NCBI RefSeq assembly: GCF_027111295.1
Contig: NZ_CP114287.1
Coordinates: 1,674,001 to 1,738,000, forward strand
Direction of reading: 5' to 3'
DNA length: 64,000 nucleotides
DNA from: Flavobacterium gelatinilyticum
GTDB taxonomy: Bacteria > Bacteroidota > Bacteroidia > Flavobacteriales > Flavobacteriaceae
Under the pieces are notes generated by a model. It was not told where the DNA came from, made no database searches, and saw nothing but the letters and a program-made list of their open reading frames with translations. The first letter of the stretch is position 1; every line of letters starts with the position of its first letter. A program made the translations under genes and the position numbers. Of the stretch, positions 55,669 to 64,000 are shown one piece after another.

Positions 55669-56025
55669 ATGAAATCGATTTTAAAATTAAGTTTAGTATG
55701 TGCAGTACTTTTATCAGGAGTTAGTACTTATGCAATTGATGGTGGAAATGCTTTTAACTTACACGTTTTAAAAGCTAAAGGAAAATTAATAACGTTTGCT
55801 ATGAACCAGGTTCAAAAAGCAAGCATTAGTATATATGACAAAAACGGAAGCTTACTTTATTCTGAAAAAGCTACAGGTAAAGAAGGTATCTTAAGAACTT
55901 TCAGCTTAGAAGAATTCCCGGCTGGAACTTACTTTTTGGAAATCGAAGATGCTAACAAAAAAGCAAGACACGAAATTACAATTACAGCAGAAAATACAGT
56001 TTTATCAACAACTGCTCTTAAATAA
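55669..56025 (+). CDS. Small exported protein, array member 1 (DUF3244 / T9SS sorting-domain-like)
   Basis: A 118-residue protein with a signal peptide (residues 1-22, ending TYA). The mature part has an AIDGG start, then a beta-sandwich-like domain: ISIYDKNGSLLYSE, then ILRTFSLEEFPAGTYFLEIED and KKARHEITI. This resembles DUF3244 and stand-alone T9SS sorting domains, but without a passenger. It differs from member 2 at about 17 of 117 aligned positions. First of four tandem paralogues with shared control modules. Role unknown; a structural or surface role is possible. Confidence 0.85.
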   Translation: MKSILKLSLVCAVLLSGVSTYAIDGGNAFNLHVLKAKGKLITFAMNQVQKASISIYDKNGSLLYSEKATGKEGILRTFSLEEFPAGTYFLEIEDANKKARHEITITAENTVLSTTALK

Positions 56026-56083
56026 AAAATCTGGCATACTTTATGTATGCTAAAAAATATAAGCACAGCAATGTGCTGCAAAA

Positions 56084-56186
56084 GTTATACTTCTCATAAA
56101 GGTATAAATAAGGTTAGATAGTTAGTAAAGTTTAAAAACGCAAGTTTTAGAAACAGCTCTTTGTGGTTATTGAGCTGTTTTTTTTT
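56084..56186 (+). terminator. Conserved 3' UTR with terminator, copy 1
   Basis: A small hairpin (TTATAC...GTATAA), then GGTTAGATAGTTAGTAAAG, then the terminator at 56152-56186 where AACAGCTC pairs with GAGCTGTT around a 12-base loop and a T run follows. Near-identical blocks follow genes 2 and 3. Confidence 0.8.
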
Positions 56187-56254
56187 GCTCTTTACTTTTT
56201 TGAAAACCCATCTCTTTTAAATTGTTTCTGGCAGACTTTCTTTTTTAGGTCTGG

Positions 56255-56650
56255 AAAATTGCTTCACGCAGATTTTGCTTCCCTTTCTTATATATAGGTG
56301 CAAATTTTGTTTCACGCAGATTTCGCGGATCGGGCAGATTTTTTGATTTTGCAGATTTTTTTATTCTGCTCTTTATCAAATGCAGATTCTAAAAATCGCT
56401 TCGCGCAGATTTACTTCTCCTTCTTATATATAGGTGCAAATTTTGTTTCACGCAGATTTCGCGGATCGGGCAGATTTTTTGATTTTACTGAATTTCTTAT
56501 TCTGCTCTTTATTAAATGAGATTTAAAAAATTGCTTCACGCAGATTTTACTTCTCTTTCTTATATATAGGTGTAACCTTTTTGTTTCACGCAGATTTTGC
56601 AGATCAGACAGATTTTTATTTTTTCCGGACCTATTTCTATATAGATATAA
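56255..56650. repeat. Tandem ~135-base repeats (three copies)
   Basis: Three units beginning GCTTC(A/G)CGCAGATT at about 56261, 56398 and 56533. Each also has CTTATATATAGGTG and TTTCACGCAGATTT. The first two share GCGGATCGGGCAGA; the third is more degenerate. They fill the gap between array genes 1 and 2 and encode nothing convincing. Confidence 0.75.
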
Positions 56651-56898
56651 AAGTAAAATTGTTTCCATAGGTTTGGGCTGCAGGTTTTAAATACTTTCAA
56701 ATACTGAAATCATTTATGCCTTTTTCTCTCCTTTACGCAGTTTTTACATAAAGACAATCCAAAACCACCTAAAATCCAGTGGATGAAATCTGAATTTTGA
56801 GACCAAAATTTGAAAATTTGCTTATGTAATTTATTTTCATAACAATAATTACGAAAACAATAAAATTTATAACTATAAATTATGCATAAAGCAAATTG
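56651..56898. other. AT-rich spacer between the tandem repeats and upstream module copy 2
   Basis: No gene, repeat or strong hairpin is visible in these 248 bases. Confidence 0.4.
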
Positions 56899-57092
56899 GC
56901 AATATTACCAAAACATTAAAAAATAATAAGTGAATTAACAAAAACACCTCATTTAATGCAAAAATTAACCTATAACGGTTTCGTAAATGAGAATATAGCA
57001 TATAAATAGGAAAATAGAGTTGATAAAAAAAACATATACCCACAGTAATTTTACATCAGAGAATTAGAGTTAATAACATAAAACTAAATAGA
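56899..57092 (+). promoter_or_regulatory. Conserved upstream module, copy 2
   Basis: Same order as copy 1: GAATTAACAAAAACACCTC, the conserved word at 56967-56991, GGAAAATAGAG, TTG at 57020, a 23-base spacer and TAATTTTACATC at 57046. The left half of the upstream palindrome is diverged. Confidence 0.65.
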
Positions 57093-57446
57093 ATGAAAAA
57101 GGTTGCAAAATTGAGTTTAGTATGTGCGGTACTTTTATCAGGTTTAAGTACTTACGCAATTGATGGTGGAAGCGCTTTTAACTTACACGTAATAAAAGCG
57201 AACGGAAAAGTAATAACATTTGCTATGAACCAGGTTCAAAAAGCAAGTATTAGTATATATGACAAAAACGGAAATTTGATTTATTCTGAAAATGCTACTG
57301 GTAAAGAAGGTATCTTAAGAACTTTCAGCTTAGAAGAATTTCCTGCCGGAACTTACTTTTTGGAAATCGAAGATGCTAACAAAAAAGCAAGACACGAAAT
57401 TACAATTACACCAAGTGCAACAATTTTGTCTCCAAAAGCACTTTAA
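57093..57446 (+). CDS. Small exported protein, array member 2
   Basis: A 117-residue protein nearly identical to member 1: signal peptide ending TYA, AIDGGSAFNLHVIK, and the conserved ISIYDKNGNLIYSE and ILRTFSLEEFPAGTYFLEIED blocks. The last ten residues differ most. Probable product of a recent duplication; the flanking modules are duplicated with the gene. Confidence 0.85.
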   Translation: MKKVAKLSLVCAVLLSGLSTYAIDGGSAFNLHVIKANGKVITFAMNQVQKASISIYDKNGNLIYSENATGKEGILRTFSLEEFPAGTYFLEIEDANKKARHEITITPSATILSPKAL

Positions 57447-57514
57447 GAAACAAACAGATTTTCTGTAAAAATATAGCGGCAACGCTAAAAATTTTATACT
57501 CTCACACAGTATAA

Positions 57515-57595
57515 AAATGAGGTTAGATAGTTAGTAAAGTTTAAAACGTAAAGTTTTTAAAACAGCTCTTTGTGGTTATTGAGCTGTTTTTTTTT
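57515..57595 (+). terminator. Conserved 3' UTR with terminator, copy 2
   Basis: GAGGTTAGATAGTTAGTAAAG is followed by the terminator at 57561-57595, AACAGCTC / GAGCTGTT plus T run, as in copy 1. Confidence 0.8.
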
Positions 57596-57682
57596 GCTCT
57601 TTACTTTCCGGTAAGGTGAACTTTACAAAACCTTTATTTTATTCCTACAAATATTATTGAATCGTTAGCCAATGGTAAAATT

Positions 57683-57877
57683 ACGTTTTTGTAAAAACGT
57701 TGAAAAAAATTAGCCTAATTAACAAAAACACCTAATTTAATTCAAAAATTAACCTATAACGGTTTCGTAAATGAGAATACAGCATAGAAATTGGAAAATA
57801 GAGCAAACAAAAATCTTACAAAGCTGTAGTAATTTTACATCAGAGAATTAAACTAATAAATTTAAAAACTAACAGTT
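57683..57877 (+). promoter_or_regulatory. Conserved upstream module, copy 3
   Basis: Begins with the near-perfect palindrome ACGTTTTTGTAAAAACGT (57683), 68 bases before the conserved word at 57751-57775, the same distance as in copy 1. At the TTG position the sequence is CAA (57804-57806); the 23-base spacer and TAATTTTACATC (57830) are kept. Confidence 0.65.
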
Positions 57878-58282
57878 ATGAAAAAGATTTTAAAGTTGAG
57901 TTTAGTATGTGCGGTGCTTTTTACAGGAAGCACTTATGCAATCGATGGTAATGAAGATTTTAATCTTCACGTTATAAAAGCAAACGGAAAGCAGATCACT
58001 TTTGCTCTTAACAGAGTACAAAAAGCAAACCTTGCTATTTATGATCAGGACGGATCTCTAATTTATTCTGAAACCGCTTCTGGTAAAGATGGAATTTTGA
58101 GAACTTTCAGCTTAGAGGAATTTCCGGAAGGAACCTATTTCTTAGAAGTGGAAGACAGTATTAAAAAAGTTAAGCATGAAATTACAATAACTGATGCCGC
58201 AACTGTATTATCTACAAAAGCAGTTTCATCAGTTTACAAAGCAGGTTATTCTGCAAAAAATACCAGCGTAGCAGTACGCTAA
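57878..58282 (+). CDS. Small exported protein, array member 3
   Basis: A 134-residue paralogue, more diverged than members 1 and 2: signal peptide ending TYA, AIDGNEDFNLHV, LAIYDQDGSLIYSE, ILRTFSLEEFPEGTYFLEVED and KVKHEITI. A 16-residue C-terminal extension (VYKAGYSAKNTSVAVR) is not found in members 1 and 2. Confidence 0.85.
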   Translation: MKKILKLSLVCAVLFTGSTYAIDGNEDFNLHVIKANGKQITFALNRVQKANLAIYDQDGSLIYSETASGKDGILRTFSLEEFPEGTYFLEVEDSIKKVKHEITITDAATVLSTKAVSSVYKAGYSAKNTSVAVR

Positions 58283-58284
58283 AA

Positions 58285-58388
58285 AAGTTATACTTCTCAT
58301 AAGTATAAAATAAGGTTAGATAGTTAGTAAAGTTAAAACGTGATTGTTTTAAAAACAGCTCTTTGTGGTTATTGAGCTGTTTTTTTTT
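58285..58388 (+). terminator. Conserved 3' UTR with terminator, copy 3
   Basis: AAGTTATACTTCTCAT, then AGGTTAGATAGTTAGTAAAG, then the terminator at 58354-58388 with the same AACAGCTC / GAGCTGTT stem and T run. Confidence 0.8.
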
Positions 58389-58586
58389 GCTTTTTACCGA
58401 AGAAAAAAGAAAGCCTTTTAACTATTTGAAAAACTATTCTTAATAATTGTTCGAAGCTTATTTTTTTATGTTAAAAAAATTTATTTTGGCAGAAAACCGC
58501 AATCCCTTTATTTACGTACATAGCGAAGAACAAAGCTTCGAAAAGGTTTCAATTCAGCATTTTAGACGGGAAAAAAGCCTGATTTT

Positions 58587-58620
58587 TTGCTAAAAAATTA
58601 AAATTCTATTTGTAGTTTTG
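58587..58620 (+). promoter_or_regulatory. Candidate promoter of array member 4
   Basis: TTG (58587-58589), a 23-base spacer, and TAGTTTTG (58613-58620), an exact TAnnTTTG match. The conserved upstream word of members 1-3 is absent here. Confidence 0.55.
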
Positions 58621-58654
58621 GTCGTTCCACATTTAGTAATAAACTTTAAAAAAC

Positions 58655-59041
58655 ATGACAAAATTTACCAAGACCGGGTTAGTTGCTGCCTTTTTTTTAG
58701 CAACACTTTTTACTTATGCCATTGATGGAAATGGAGATTATATTTTAAATATAAAAACCGGAAACGGAAAAGTAGTAACCTTTACTCTAGACACCGTTGA
58801 CAACACATCGTTTTCTATCTATGACGAAAATCACAATTTACTTTATGCGGGAGAATCTGCAGCAAACAAATTAGAGGTTTCTAAAACCATAAGCCTTGAA
58901 AGCTTTCCGGCCGGAACTTATGTTTTAGAAGTTAAAGCAAACGAAAAAATTGCTAAGCACGAAATTAAAGTTGCTGCAAAAAAGGTAAAAACAGTAAAGT
59001 TAGACGAATCTGTAAACCATAGTCCAGGTTTTCGTCGTTAA
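58655..59041 (+). CDS. Small exported protein, array member 4
   Basis: A 128-residue distant paralogue: signal peptide ending TYA, AIDGNGDYILNIKTGNGK, FSIYDENHNLLYAGE, ISLESFPAGTYVLEVKA and KHEIKVA. It keeps the fold but not the shared control modules. It has its own TAGTTTTG promoter and a separate terminator. Confidence 0.82.
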   Translation: MTKFTKTGLVAAFFLATLFTYAIDGNGDYILNIKTGNGKVVTFTLDTVDNTSFSIYDENHNLLYAGESAANKLEVSKTISLESFPAGTYVLEVKANEKIAKHEIKVAAKKVKTVKLDESVNHSPGFRR

Positions 59042-59584: not shown

Positions 59585-59994
59585 TATTTCTGATTTAGTA
59601 ATTTTTCTAAATACTCAATTTTGTCTTTTTCCGACTGAAGCAGACGCTCGTAAAGCTTTTTATTTTCTTCTACAGTTTCCATTAATTTATCTAATGGATT
59701 GAAAGTGCAATTATTTCCAAAATTTACTTGGCTATCTTTTGTATCATTAAAAGTGTTGAAATAATTAATCATTCCTTCTTCTGAAAAGTTTTTAATTGCT
59801 TCTGCTGTAACACCAAGTGCTTTTGCAATAGCGATAAGTTTATCATCATCTATCGTTTCACTATTTTCTAAAATAGAAATCGCTTGCTGATTTGTTCCTA
59901 AAGCCTGTGCCAAAGCTTCCTGCTTCATATCTCGAAGTTCACGAATACGGCTTATTTTTCGCCCTATATGATTTGGTTTTGTTAGTGTGCTCAT
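59584..59994 (-). CDS. XRE family helix-turn-helix regulator
   Basis: A 136-residue DNA-binding protein. Residues 10-66 form a lambda-repressor-like HTH: IGRKISRIRELRDMKQEALAQALGTNQQAISILENS. The C-terminal 60 residues are a charged helix with heptad-like Leu/Ile spacing (LMETVEENKKLYERLLQSEKDKIEYLEKLL), suitable for dimerisation. Single gene. Possible regulator of a nearby accessory module, but no operator is recognised. Confidence 0.85.
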   Translation of the reverse strand: MSTLTKPNHIGRKISRIRELRDMKQEALAQALGTNQQAISILENSETIDDDKLIAIAKALGVTAEAIKNFSEEGMINYFNTFNDTKDSQVNFGNNCTFNPLDKLMETVEENKKLYERLLQSEKDKIEYLEKLLNQK

Positions 59995-60192
59995 AATTCA
60001 AAGATAATAATTAAGTATAAGAATCTGCGAGATGTAAAAAACATATTTAATCGTGTACCAAACACAAAAAATTGATTCGCTACATAAAAATCTATTTCTT
60101 CCTTCGCCGAATCAAACAAAAGTACAATTTTTCTTATATAAAATTTATAAAGCTAAATTGTAAAATTAAATTACCAGCAAAAAATAAAAATT

Positions 60193-60507
60193 ATGGAAAC
60201 CAACAAAACTAAAAACCTCGAATACCTTAAATCACTAACCGATTTATATTTCAGTACCCTGCAGCCCGCAAACGATAATCATGACACGTACACAGCTAAA
60301 ATCAAAGTTTTAAATTACTTCGAACTCGGCTGTCTTATTACCGATATGCTGAAACTCTGCATCCACGCCCTAGATCACGATATGCACAATGTCGAAAAGA
60401 AGAAAAAGCAATCTATAAATGTAGGCCTAATTCTGGAAATGGTTCTTTCTATTTTTCCTTTGGATGAAATGGAATTTTTGGGGTATGTTGGGGAGGTTGT
60501 TGAGTAA
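60193..60507 (+). CDS. Hypothetical small protein
   Basis: A 104-residue soluble protein with two helical blocks (NLEYLKSLTDLYFSTLQPANDNHDTY; INVGLILEMVLSIFPLDEMEFLGYVGEVVE). Several Asp/His/Glu and Cys residues lie in the middle (LGCLITDMLKLCIHALDHDMHN). I do not recognise the family. It faces a pair of palindromic repeats downstream. Confidence 0.55.
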   Translation: METNKTKNLEYLKSLTDLYFSTLQPANDNHDTYTAKIKVLNYFELGCLITDMLKLCIHALDHDMHNVEKKKKQSINVGLILEMVLSIFPLDEMEFLGYVGEVVE

Positions 60508-60527: not shown

Positions 60528-60640
60528 CACACAATCTTGTCATTTCGACCGAAGGGAGAAATCACATTCGGGAATCGACAAAGCAAATCACCAATCTTTG
60601 TAGAATTGCTAGTGTGATTTCTCGTTCCTCGAAATGACAA
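60528..60640. repeat. TCATTTCGA palindromic repeat, copy 1
   Basis: TTGTCATTTCGA (60538-60549) is mirrored by TCGAAATGACAA (60629-60640), and GAGAAATCACA by a TGTGATTTCTC in the inner arm. Encodes nothing. Confidence 0.75.
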
Positions 60641-60653
60641 ACTTTGCGTTTAC

Positions 60654-60679
60654 GAGCGAGACGCTCGTGCCAGCAGAGG
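60654..60679. repeat. GAGCG/CGCTC hairpin between the two palindromes
   Basis: GAGCGAGACGCTC folds back on itself, followed by GTGCCAGCAGAGG. Typical of a dispersed repeat edge. Confidence 0.5.
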
Positions 60680-60680
60680 A

Positions 60681-60790
60681 CACACAATCTTGTCATTTCG
60701 ACCGCTAGGGAGAAATCACACTCGGGATTCGACAATGCAAATCGTCAATCTTTGTAGAATTACTTGTGTGATTTCTTCTCTGTCGAATTT
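60681..60790. repeat. TCATTTCGA palindromic repeat, copy 2
   Basis: Starts CACACAATCTTGTCATTTCG, as copy 1, and repeats most of its core, ending TTACTTGTGTGATTTCT. The right arm is degenerate. Confidence 0.7.
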
Positions 60791-60799
60791 TAAACATTA

Positions 60800-61225
60800 T
60801 TAATTTTTCATTGTCGCTTTTTTAGCTTTATTGTCCTGGCTAAGTTTAATAAAGTTTACAGGCGGAAGCAATACAGCTTTCATACCAGCCTTTAAAGATG
60901 TTCCTGCAATGTGCTCCCTAATAAAAGGATAGATAATAGCAGGACCATTCGCTTCAACAAATTTCTCTACAGGCAAAATATCTTCATTTCCTATTTCAAA
61001 AACTCCAAGGTAATTTGTCGTAAATCTAAACAACTTTTTTCTTTTATATTTCCCAATCAAATCAACTTTCAAAGAAATTATAACATCACCTGAGATTAAA
61101 GTATGCTGAATATCAATATCAACCTGATTATCTATTTCAGCAGAAAAATCTATTTCTGCTTCTCTTCTAAAATTACTTTCAATTAGAGATAAACTTTTAA
61201 GTTTATAGGTTTTATTTTCACTCAT
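60800..61225 (-). CDS. SecB-like chaperone
   Basis: A 141-residue protein with the SecB hallmark near its C-terminal half: NGPAIIYPFIREHI (residues 93-106), then LLPPVNF (119-125). SecB keeps preproteins unfolded for SecA, but small SecB-like proteins also control toxins in toxin-antitoxin-chaperone (TAC) systems. Here the gene is one base downstream of an unknown gene and in an operon with a HEPN protein, a context that favours the TAC-like reading. This is inference; general Sec export is also possible. Confidence 0.75.
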   Translation of the reverse strand: MSENKTYKLKSLSLIESNFRREAEIDFSAEIDNQVDIDIQHTLISGDVIISLKVDLIGKYKRKKLFRFTTNYLGVFEIGNEDILPVEKFVEANGPAIIYPFIREHIAGTSLKAGMKAVLLPPVNFIKLSQDNKAKKATMKN

Positions 61226-61226
61226 C

Positions 61227-61787
61227 TTAAGCAGCTAAGGGGTAATCATTGTCCATAGAATCGCAATCATAATCAATTTGTACTGTCGGTAAAATAGTGT
61301 CAACCGTAGTATAAAGCTCAGGGTTTTGAACCTTTTCTGTACTATGAATCATTTTTTTAGCACTTAAATTTTGGAAAATGGCATCATATTTTAAGTTAAT
61401 ACCATCAATCATAACTTTAAAATTAATATTCGATTGCCAATCAACTATATAATCTTCAAACAAAGTAGAGATAATATCTTCTAAATCGAATTTCTTGTAT
61501 ATTTCTTTATTTTTAGATTTTCCTTTAATAACAATAGGAGACTCTAAAGAAATACCATCTTCTTCATTAATAAAAGTTAGAATATCAAAAGGAAAGAGAT
61601 TTATAAATTCTAAGCTTATCTCTTTTTCTATTGCTATATATTTTTTGTTGTTTTCAAATTCATATATAGGTGATACTTCTACAAAATGTGAATCACAAAA
61701 TTGATTATATTCGTATCTAATTGTCAATTGAGGAATATCATTAGCTAATTCCTGAATTTTTCTTAATATGTAGGCTTTTGAATTCAT
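61227..61787 (-). CDS. Hypothetical protein of the HEPN-SecB-like operon
   Basis: A 186-residue soluble protein with helix/strand alternation (ILRKIQELANDIPQLTIRYEYNQFCDSHFVEVSP) and a conserved-looking FINLFPFDILTFINEEDGISLESPIVIKGKS stretch. No nucleotidyltransferase GSxxxG/DxD motif is seen, so it is not the usual MNT partner of HEPN proteins. Its start codon overlaps the HEPN stop (ATGA). Possible antitoxin or effector; unknown. Confidence 0.55.
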   Translation of the reverse strand: MNSKAYILRKIQELANDIPQLTIRYEYNQFCDSHFVEVSPIYEFENNKKYIAIEKEISLEFINLFPFDILTFINEEDGISLESPIVIKGKSKNKEIYKKFDLEDIISTLFEDYIVDWQSNINFKVMIDGINLKYDAIFQNLSAKKMIHSTEKVQNPELYTTVDTILPTVQIDYDCDSMDNDYPLAA

Positions 61788-62209
61788 AAGGCAAAATGTT
61801 TAATTAATTCATCATTAATTGTTCTTGATAAATTTAGCGAGATTGTTGCTGTTTTTGTATCTATAGCATCTTCTTTGTAGTCAGCTGTATGTCTATAACG
61901 TTTCAAAATTCCTATCTTACTATCAAATAAACGTCCAAAAGTTTCATTCGTAGTTGTTATATTTTCTTTTATAAATGAAATCGTTAAATTATGTGAATCT
62001 TCTTTAAAGTTTTTACTATTTAATGACTCAGCGTATTTTCTTTCTTGAAAAGAATCCCATTCGTTATTCAATTTGTATTTTAATATGTATAATATAATTT
62101 GATAAGTACTGTAATAAACACAATGTATACTTGATGAATATTTTTCATTATTAAATAGAAGTTCTGCAGACTCAAAATTATTTAAAGACTTCGTAATATA
62201 TTCACTCAT
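61784..62209 (-). CDS. HEPN domain-like protein
   Basis: A 141-residue all-helical protein resembling PF05168 HEPN domains: a first helix pair (NNFESAELLFNNEKYSSSIHCVYYSTYQIILYIL), then KRYRHTADYKED near residues 103-113, where Arg104/Arg106, His107 and Asp110 match the Rx..H/ADY-type active or contact region. Many HEPN proteins are RNases in toxin-antitoxin or defence systems. First gene of the tight three-gene operon. Its catalytic state cannot be judged from one sequence. Confidence 0.7.
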   Translation of the reverse strand: MSEYITKSLNNFESAELLFNNEKYSSSIHCVYYSTYQIILYILKYKLNNEWDSFQERKYAESLNSKNFKEDSHNLTISFIKENITTTNETFGRLFDSKIGILKRYRHTADYKEDAIDTKTATISLNLSRTINDELIKHFAL

Positions 62210-62775
62210 AGATATTATATAGAAGAATGCAATAATACATATTTAAATAACTTATATATAAAGTTAAGTTTTTTTATTTAAAATTATCAATTGTAAAAAG
62301 TTATAATTATCTCAAAATAAAACATTCTCAATAATTAGTTAAAAATTTGACTTGCCAAATATATGAATATATTCGACATCACAAATCATTTCAATATTAT
62401 TCTCACAATTTTTAACAAAAAATAAAACGTATCAAATTCGCATGGATAAATATTAATAAAAATTACACTTTAATAGATATTCTACAATAAATATCCATTC
62501 ACAAATCTATAATGCTTTTTTCATTTATCAATAGGTATAATTACCCTATTTATCTCAAATGTAATTTTTAAATATGTCGAAAGTATTATAATATTGGATA
62601 TTTCAAAAGTACCTGCTCAGTTTTATTACAACTATGTTCAGGTACTGAAAGATTGTGAGGAGCATTTTAACAAACTGTCTCATATATACTCGTTTTTTAA
62701 CTCTGTAAATGATTTAAATAAAAACCCTCTCAAAAATCTTGAGAGAGTTTTCCATAAATCTATAAAAAGTAAATC
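62210..62775. other. AT-rich intergenic region
   Basis: 566 bases, very A/T rich, between the HEPN operon promoter side and the mutase gene. It must hold the operon promoter. Apart from the mutase terminator at 62715-62750, I see no hairpin, repeat or believable ORF. Confidence 0.4.
62715..62750 (-). terminator. Terminator of the methylmalonyl-CoA mutase-family gene
   Basis: ACCCTCTCAA pairs with TTGAGAGAGT; on the minus strand T-rich sequence follows. Confidence 0.75.
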
Positions 62776-64000
62776 TTACATATTCCTTCTATACTGCCCA
62801 CCAACCTCAAACAACGCCGAAGTAATCTGACCAAGAGAACAAACTTTTGTAGCTTCCATTAAATAATCGAATAAGTTTTCGTTTTTAATGGCTGCGTCTT
62901 GCAACTGGCTTAAATGCTCGTTTACTTTTGCTTCGTGGAAATTATGCAGATTGTCCAACATCGTAATCTGGTATTGTTTTTCTACTTCTGTGGCACGAAT
63001 TACCTCAGCCGGAATTACTGTTGGCGATCCTTTTGAACTCAGGAACGTATTTACACCCACAATTGGGAAATCTCCGTTGTGTTTTAAGGTTTCGTAATAC
63101 AAACTTTCTTCCTGAATTTTAGAACGTTGGTACATTGTTTCCATTGCACCAAGAACGCCGCCTCTTTCTGTGATTCTGTCGAATTCCTGTAAAACAGCTT
63201 CTTCTACCAAATCAGTTAATTCTTCGATGATGAACGAACCTTGTATTGGGTTTTCATTTTTCGCCAAACCTAATTCTTTATTGATAATCAGCTGAATTGC
63301 CATCGCACGACGTACAGATTCTTCTGTTGGCGTGGTAATTGCTTCGTCGTAAGCGTTGGTGTGTAATGAATTACAGTTGTCATAAATCGCATACAAAGCC
63401 TGCAAAGTCGTTCTGATATCGTTGAAATCAATTTCCTGCGCGTGTAACGAACGTCCGGAAGTCTGAATATGATATTTCAGCATTTGCGCTCTTTCGTTGG
63501 CTCCGTATTTCAATTTCATGGCTTTTGCCCAAATCTTACGCGCCACACGACCAATAACCGAATATTCAGGATCTACTCCGTTCGAGAAGAAGAACGATAA
63601 ATTTGGTCCAAAATCGTTGATGTTCATTCCTCGGCTCAAATAATATTCCACGTAAGTGAAACCATTTGAAAGCGTAAACGCCAATTGCGTAATTGGGTTC
63701 GCTCCCGCCTCGGCAATATGATATCCTGAAATCGAAACCGAATAGAAATTACGAACGTTTTTAGTAATAAAATATTCCTGAACGTCTCCCATTAATCGTA
63801 GCGCAAATTCAGTTGAGAAAATACACGTATTCTGTGCCTGATCTTCTTTTAAAATATCGGCCTGAACCGTTCCACGAACTTGAGCTAACGTTTTTACTTT
63901 TATTTCGTTATAAACTTCCAAAGGCAAAACCTGATCTCCTGTAACACCCAAAAGCATTAATCCCAAACCGTTGTTTCCTGCCGGAAGTTCGCCTTGGTAT
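62776..64000 (-). CDS. Methylmalonyl-CoA mutase family protein, C-terminal part (runs off the window)
   Basis: Partial: the reading frame continues past 64000 ([13 protein letters not shown] at the edge), so the true start is outside. The visible 408 residues are the B12-mutase catalytic TIM barrel: [59 protein letters not shown] and [14 protein letters not shown] cobalamin-binding DxHxxG end is absent from this side; in the fused IcmF-type enzymes that domain is N-terminal, which would fit. Substrate: methylmalonyl-CoA or isobutyryl-CoA, not decidable here. Confidence 0.9.

Follow-up and report, generated by a model that had tools for sequence, protein, structure and literature searches.

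Within the window, that is the whole stretch of 64,000 nucleotides of Flavobacterium DNA that was analysed, three minus-strand genes encoding, in reading order, a HEPN protein, a protein here designated X and a SecB-like protein probably constitute a toxin-antitoxin-chaperone (TAC) module of new composition, whose placement in the TAC kind is based on the gene layout, the chaperone family and the degron-like tail of X. This module probably combines a HEPN toxin, X as a labile antitoxin bearing a degron and a shielding chaperone, and would bring about abortive infection when triggered by phage. The original prediction of a TAC or defence module thus gains support from the co-occurrence of the three genes, the type of the chaperone, the tmRNA-tag-like tail of X and the location at a variable site where relatives have genes of defence types. 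It had also been noted that no described HEPN-X-SecB arrangement was known, and neither such an arrangement nor any TAC with a HEPN toxin was found in the literature searched, which covered few subscription journals. Remote HEPN similarity is reported for six of 21 systems, with no link drawn there to a SecB-like gene (PMC9519451).

Gene order, distribution and chromosomal site

The tight packing of the three genes was confirmed with minus-strand coordinates (Table 1), as were the ATGA overlap joining HEPN and X and the single base separating X from the SecB-like gene. Upstream of HEPN lie a leader and a weak match to a Bacteroidetes-type promoter consensus, a pattern found four times in the window against 6.1 occurrences expected by chance. 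Just past the SecB-like gene, positions 60528-60787 hold two tandem repeat copies with internal inverted arms, whose 15-base core has no other occurrence in the window.

Table 1. Positions of the trio, its proposed functional elements and the adjoining site edge
Feature	Position in window	Strand	Basis or remark
HEPN gene	61784..62209	-	141 aa; putative toxin and RNase
HEPN His73, proposed alternative active-site His	61991..61993	-	alignments
HEPN Arg106-x3-Asp110-Tyr111, in place of Rx4-6H	61877..61894	-	10/10 loci
X gene	61227..61787	-	186 aa; putative antitoxin, new family
X residues 1-90, N-terminal part with better conservation	61518..61787	-	low-confidence model
X residues 151-186, conserved C-terminal segment, candidate chaperone-addiction region	61230..61337	-	8-row alignment
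X C-terminus MDNDYPLAA, tmRNA-tag-like, proposed ClpXP degron	61230..61256	-	tail comparison
SecB-like gene	60800..61225	-	141 aa; proposed dedicated chaperone
Leader/promoter stretch upstream of HEPN	62210..62321	-	conserved with F. pectinovorum
Promoter-like match TTTG-N18-TAtaTTTG	62356..62385	-	weak
Mutase-like gene, 3' part, fixed edge of variable site, outside module	62776..63999	-	congener comparison

The HEPN-X-SecB order is kept at all 11 loci where a relative of X could be read in its context, so that the co-occurrence on which the original prediction had staked its module claim is found throughout. Ten of these loci are intact, with gaps between the trio genes that range from -14 to +11 bases (for G1009, the chaperone is taken to start at an inner ATG, giving a gap of 1, and the outermost TTG would give -53), while the eleventh, in G788, has a broken X frame flanked by genes that read short. 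As the search for loci started from X, SecB or near relatives of HEPN, HEPN genes of this type that lack the two partners may exist, and further X and HEPN proteins are known without gene context. Relatives of X were obtained from three of 299 family genomes, four of 395 phylum genomes and seven of 395 class genomes in samples that overlap, and one of the four phylum matches (G702) was judged false; the rarity of the trio within the family counts against the preferred reading. X is carried by ten distinct genomes, among which is that of the window, and in addition by F. pectinovorum DSM 6368. In the latter, the trio with its leader has about 84% DNA identity to the window (60816-61337 and 61436-62321), and the surroundings differ except for one 79-base upstream match in the 10.4 kb compared.

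On one side, the trio is bordered by a mutase-like gene; among 25 congeners, 21 have it in full and one has it split, and three have only a 35% paralogue. Close relatives vary in what they have at this site, as the cargo beside this gene differs among the four most similar congeners and consists of genes with matches to the DRT2 reverse transcriptase and to RTasYodC in G1122 (L088, 4106-6779), a gene matching PD-T7-1/PD-T7-5 in G1111, Hcp/VgrG/Tle1-like secretion genes in G1113 and two integrase-like genes in G1115. Known defence-type matches are hence present at the site in two of the four congeners examined, based on PADLOC scores of six cargo proteins from three of the four, with single genes rather than complete systems scored. 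At the other edge (window 59597-60354), G1111 has the XRE gene, together with the greater part of the 104-aa gene, in common with the window, which makes these two genes local and not part of the module. The surroundings had been said to look accessory; of these, the XRE gene falls away as a part of the module. Positions 55669-59041 of the window encode four related small proteins in tandem with a YAIDG-type start, and G1122 (L088) has related genes in the corresponding position.

These findings bear on the reading that the trio is a TAC module serving its own maintenance or a stress response with no anti-phage role. Toxin-antitoxin units can spread selfishly, which favours it, as does the failure to find any phage link; phage-borne or plasmid-borne copies of the trio were looked for and none was found, which counts against the preferred reading. 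This reading is nevertheless unlikely, given the defence-type matches at the same site in half of the congeners examined and the reported action of CmdTAC, MqsRAC and HigBAC against phages (PMC9519451, PMC11618068, PMC11980606).

The HEPN protein, X and its tmRNA-tag-like tail

The HEPN protein scores 20.6 bits against PF05168, just below the cut-off of 22, and its model (pLDDT 92) has an all-helical HEPN fold. Counted against the preferred reading are the Foldseek search, which returned nothing under E 0.001, the PADLOC scan, which gave no match for either HEPN or X, and the lack of the canonical Rx4-6H motif in the HEPN alignments. The position of that motif is taken by an Arg-x3-Asp-Tyr element (Table 1), and of two PDB chains, 9xbd contains R-x3-D-Y and 9xbc R-x3-D-F. 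The proposed active-site His73 is present in 9/9 rows of alignment A4 and in 9/10 rows of a second alignment, where the His of G681 is shifted. A His together with R-x3-D is listed as a known HEPN variant and proposed to be active (PMC3710099). The HEPN protein is most likely an RNase with an alternative active site made of Arg and a distant His.

X could not be credibly assigned to any family in Pfam, NCBIfam or PADLOC; the HigA, HicB and MqsA domains were not found in it, and none of the 17 X proteins scanned with Pfam matched a nucleotidyltransferase family. That X resembles none of the established antitoxin families is counted against the preferred reading. Of the 15 proteins that a profile search yielded, seven had been known before. 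The structure prediction that had been suggested for this 186-residue protein delivered an N-terminal alpha/beta layout, with residues 1-90 modelled at low confidence as helix-strand-strand-helix-strand-strand; the model is poor (pLDDT 41.6 overall and under 50 for residues 63-186), which also counts against that reading. The C-terminal segment, preceded by a variable linker that is missing in three of eight proteins, contains E151, Q154-P156, Y159, T160, D172, Y173, N180-Y182 and L184-A186 as invariant positions in eight aligned rows. We propose that X is an antitoxin of a new family.

Among distinct X proteins, 21 of 22 end in AA and 16 of 22 in LAA, a count that leaves out the broken G788 copy and that may favour tailed proteins, because the tail was part of the profiles with which the relatives beyond the first seven were detected. 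Each of the eight close X proteins has LAA at its end. When the ten intact loci are considered, LAA occurs in five, SAA, FAA, MAA and QAA in four, and the end of the G806 protein is AAS, a spread counted against the preferred reading. In the window itself, an AA end is found in one of 57 non-overlapping ORFs of at least 100 aa, and this one is X.

The tmRNA tag of the window's genome is GENNYALAA, and the X tail equals it at only five of nine positions, which is likewise counted against the preferred reading. In other genomes the agreement extends from 9/9 (G620 and G1078) down to 2/9 (G806): G620 has the tag GENNYALAA and an X protein ending in GENNYALAA, while in G1078 both the tag and the X end read GENNYAMAA, so that the L-to-M change of the tag is carried by the X tail. 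In the eight genomes whose tag was usable, X tails and the tags of their own genomes are equal at 44 of 72 positions, in a comparison that was made after the sequences had been seen and whose rows share ancestry. Shuffled X tails gave 5.9 matches on average and reached 44 in 0 of 20000 cases, tags permuted among genomes gave a mean of 37.6 and at least 44 in 0.3% of cases, and in the same comparison the HEPN tails had six matches and the SecB tails five. This set leaves out G1009 (two tags, with 3 or 4 matches), G788 (no tag called and X broken) and F. pectinovorum, and the G186 tag was taken as the final nine residues of an ARAGORN prediction that is longer. The two tmRNA genes of G1009 (L049, L062), with different tags in one assembly, possibly reflect contamination.

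A similar tail is observed in G107, where the middle protein of a CmdTAC-like locus (L009, 1895-2131) ends in GENNYALAA, the tag of its own host. The G620 X protein and this middle protein share AGENNYALAA (10/10), and beyond these last ten residues nothing was aligned by BLASTP or profile comparison. As only the last ten residues are shared, the chaperone and the degron tail may form a portable cassette, a control unit fitted to unrelated toxins. The middle proteins in G072, G009 and G153 end in NEAA, KLAA and PLAA, and with such LAA- or AA-type ends on CmdTAC-like middle proteins, tails of this kind appear to belong to TACs more widely. CmdA is reported to end in LAA and to be degraded by ClpP (PMC11618068), and in the HigA1 TAC antitoxin of M. 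tuberculosis a ClpX degron is reported inside the C-terminal chaperone-addiction region (PMC8165232). It is proposed that the tail of X is a ClpXP-type degron that imitates the host tmRNA tag.

The roles within a TAC-type module could also be distributed otherwise, with X being toxic, or HEPN and X forming a joint effector in which HEPN is RNA-binding or structural rather than an RNase. The absence of Rx4-6H from HEPN and the unassigned fold of the X model are in favour of such a distribution, and so is the report on CmdTAC, where CmdT alone is not toxic and CmdT with CmdA is, CmdT requiring CmdA to fold (PMC9519451, PMC11618068). We hold it to be quite unlikely, because the degron-like tail marks X as the labile partner and HEPN keeps the R, D and Y together with a distant H, the variant proposed to be active.

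The SecB-like chaperone

The third protein of the trio passes the PF02556 cut-off (53.5 bits against 26) and has its best PADLOC match to PD-T4-9_C (E 4.8e-13), the CmdTAC chaperone CmdC; PD-T4-9 is an anti-phage system that was renamed CmdTAC (PMC9519451). The module claim had been held to be at odds with this gene being the only SecB of the strain and of general purpose. It is indeed the only SecB found in the genome (one contig of 5.83 Mb), where one further match, at E 0.7, lies below the cut-off, but it does not look general-purpose. Export-SecB cut-offs of NCBIfam are missed by a wide distance (51.6 against 102.8 bits for TIGR00809 and 52.3 against 143 for NF004392), and PD-T4-9_C-type matches occur in just 11 of the 397 genomes from the family and 10 of the 395 from the phylum.

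All 11 SecB-like genes of the family set adjoin either an HEPN-X pair or an ART-like gene and none stands alone: three belong to HEPN trios, four come after an ART-like gene plus a small one and four lie before an ART-like gene, with the ART-like identity resting on PADLOC for three of the eight (L008, L009 and L013) and assigned by eye for the other five. At one of the four loci in the CmdTAC order (ART-like, small gene, chaperone), the chaperone gene is broken. That the SecB-like protein of the trio is an ordinary export chaperone and a chance neighbour of two unrelated genes is highly improbable, for although no second SecB was found and the protein scores above the Pfam cut-off for SecB, it remains far below the TIGR00809 cut-off, 386 of 397 family genomes are without a match in a search confined to PD-T4-9_C, and each of the 11 X loci has HEPN and X in front of it.

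In a tree of 21 chaperones, whose deep support is weak, the window's protein groups with four other HEPN-linked ones (100/100) and the other five HEPN-linked chaperones are placed elsewhere; this split suggests that chaperone and toxin may have been re-paired. Two arrangements were recognized by eye. In L015, L016, L017, L023 and L012, a small gene and a SecB-like gene are followed by an ART-like gene, the reverse of the CmdTAC order, and in the first four of these, the small proteins are without LAA and instead share an F/Y-x-S-D/E-F motif that lies at the end or close to it. L025, L026, L027 and L028 are HigBAC-like loci with an HTH-type gene before the SecB-like gene.

Proposed mechanism and relation to known systems

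The analysis establishes the gene order and co-occurrence, the fold of HEPN, the SecB family of the chaperone, the conservation of the tail with its resemblance to the tmRNA tag and the position at a variable site. Toxicity and RNase activity, neutralisation, chaperone binding, ClpXP degradation and a phage trigger are inferred, and can be put together as follows. HEPN would be the toxin, an RNase with an active site of Arg and a distant His, and the N-terminal part of X would neutralise it, while the C-terminal extension of X would hold the site for the SecB-like chaperone and end in a ClpXP degron mimicking the tmRNA tag. In healthy cells, the chaperone would cover the tail of X and X would survive. 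The chaperone might then be lost to another partner, for which an abundant structural protein of an infecting phage is the most plausible candidate, as is reported for CmdTAC and HigBAC, with capsid and tail proteins of phages described as TAC triggers (PMC11618068, PMC11980606). Uncovered X would then be destroyed by ClpXP, and the freed HEPN would stop translation or growth, resulting in abortive infection.

A fuller version is conceivable, albeit with more doubt than confidence on our part: an anti-phage TAC spread in Bacteroidota, with an alternative-site HEPN RNase, a new antitoxin family and a tail that copies and tracks the host tmRNA tag, which would couple the switch to tmRNA/ClpXP clearance and tune it to the host, with the tail cassette common to ADP-ribosyltransferase TACs. 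If the TAC reading is true, HEPN, a very common RNase toxin fold, joins the toxins under the control of SecB-like chaperones, and a new antitoxin family is supplied. It also raises the question of whether the tail must match the host tmRNA tag for the switch to function, and whether such a need restricts the movement of the module.

Among HEPN proteins, the HEPN-T type of AF0298/2hsb (PF05168), alongside which AbiV is named, compares with the HEPN protein of the trio at 17% identity to 2hsb. In HEPN-MNT pairs, the partner is a minimal nucleotidyltransferase, whereas X has no nucleotidyltransferase match in Pfam; the catalytic motif also differs from that of HEPN here, and the trio adds a chaperone. 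With classical TACs of the HigBA, HicAB and MqsRA types, the trio has in common a dedicated SecB-like chaperone, and their antitoxins are described as having a C-terminal chaperone-addiction extension, for which X has a candidate region, but the antitoxin domains of these systems are lacking from X and the toxin is HEPN. The closest parallel in layout is found with CmdTAC (PD-T4-9) of E. coli, which has the same toxin-antitoxin-chaperone order, a homologous SecB-like chaperone and a middle protein whose LAA end is that of most X proteins. For CmdTAC, a complex of toxin, antitoxin and chaperone in the ratio 1:1:4 is modelled (PMC11618068), and protection is reported to be abolished when CmdC is overproduced (PMC9519451). 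In contrast, the CmdTAC toxin is an ADP-ribosyltransferase, for which neither HEPN nor its relative at L020 has a PADLOC match (PD-T4-9_A), and CmdA is described as two helices with a long tail (PMC11618068), whereas the N-terminal part of X is modelled, at low confidence, as mixed alpha/beta. The trio would be CmdTAC-like in its working and is distinct from CmdTAC itself, with a different toxin and an X protein that is unrelated beyond the tail.
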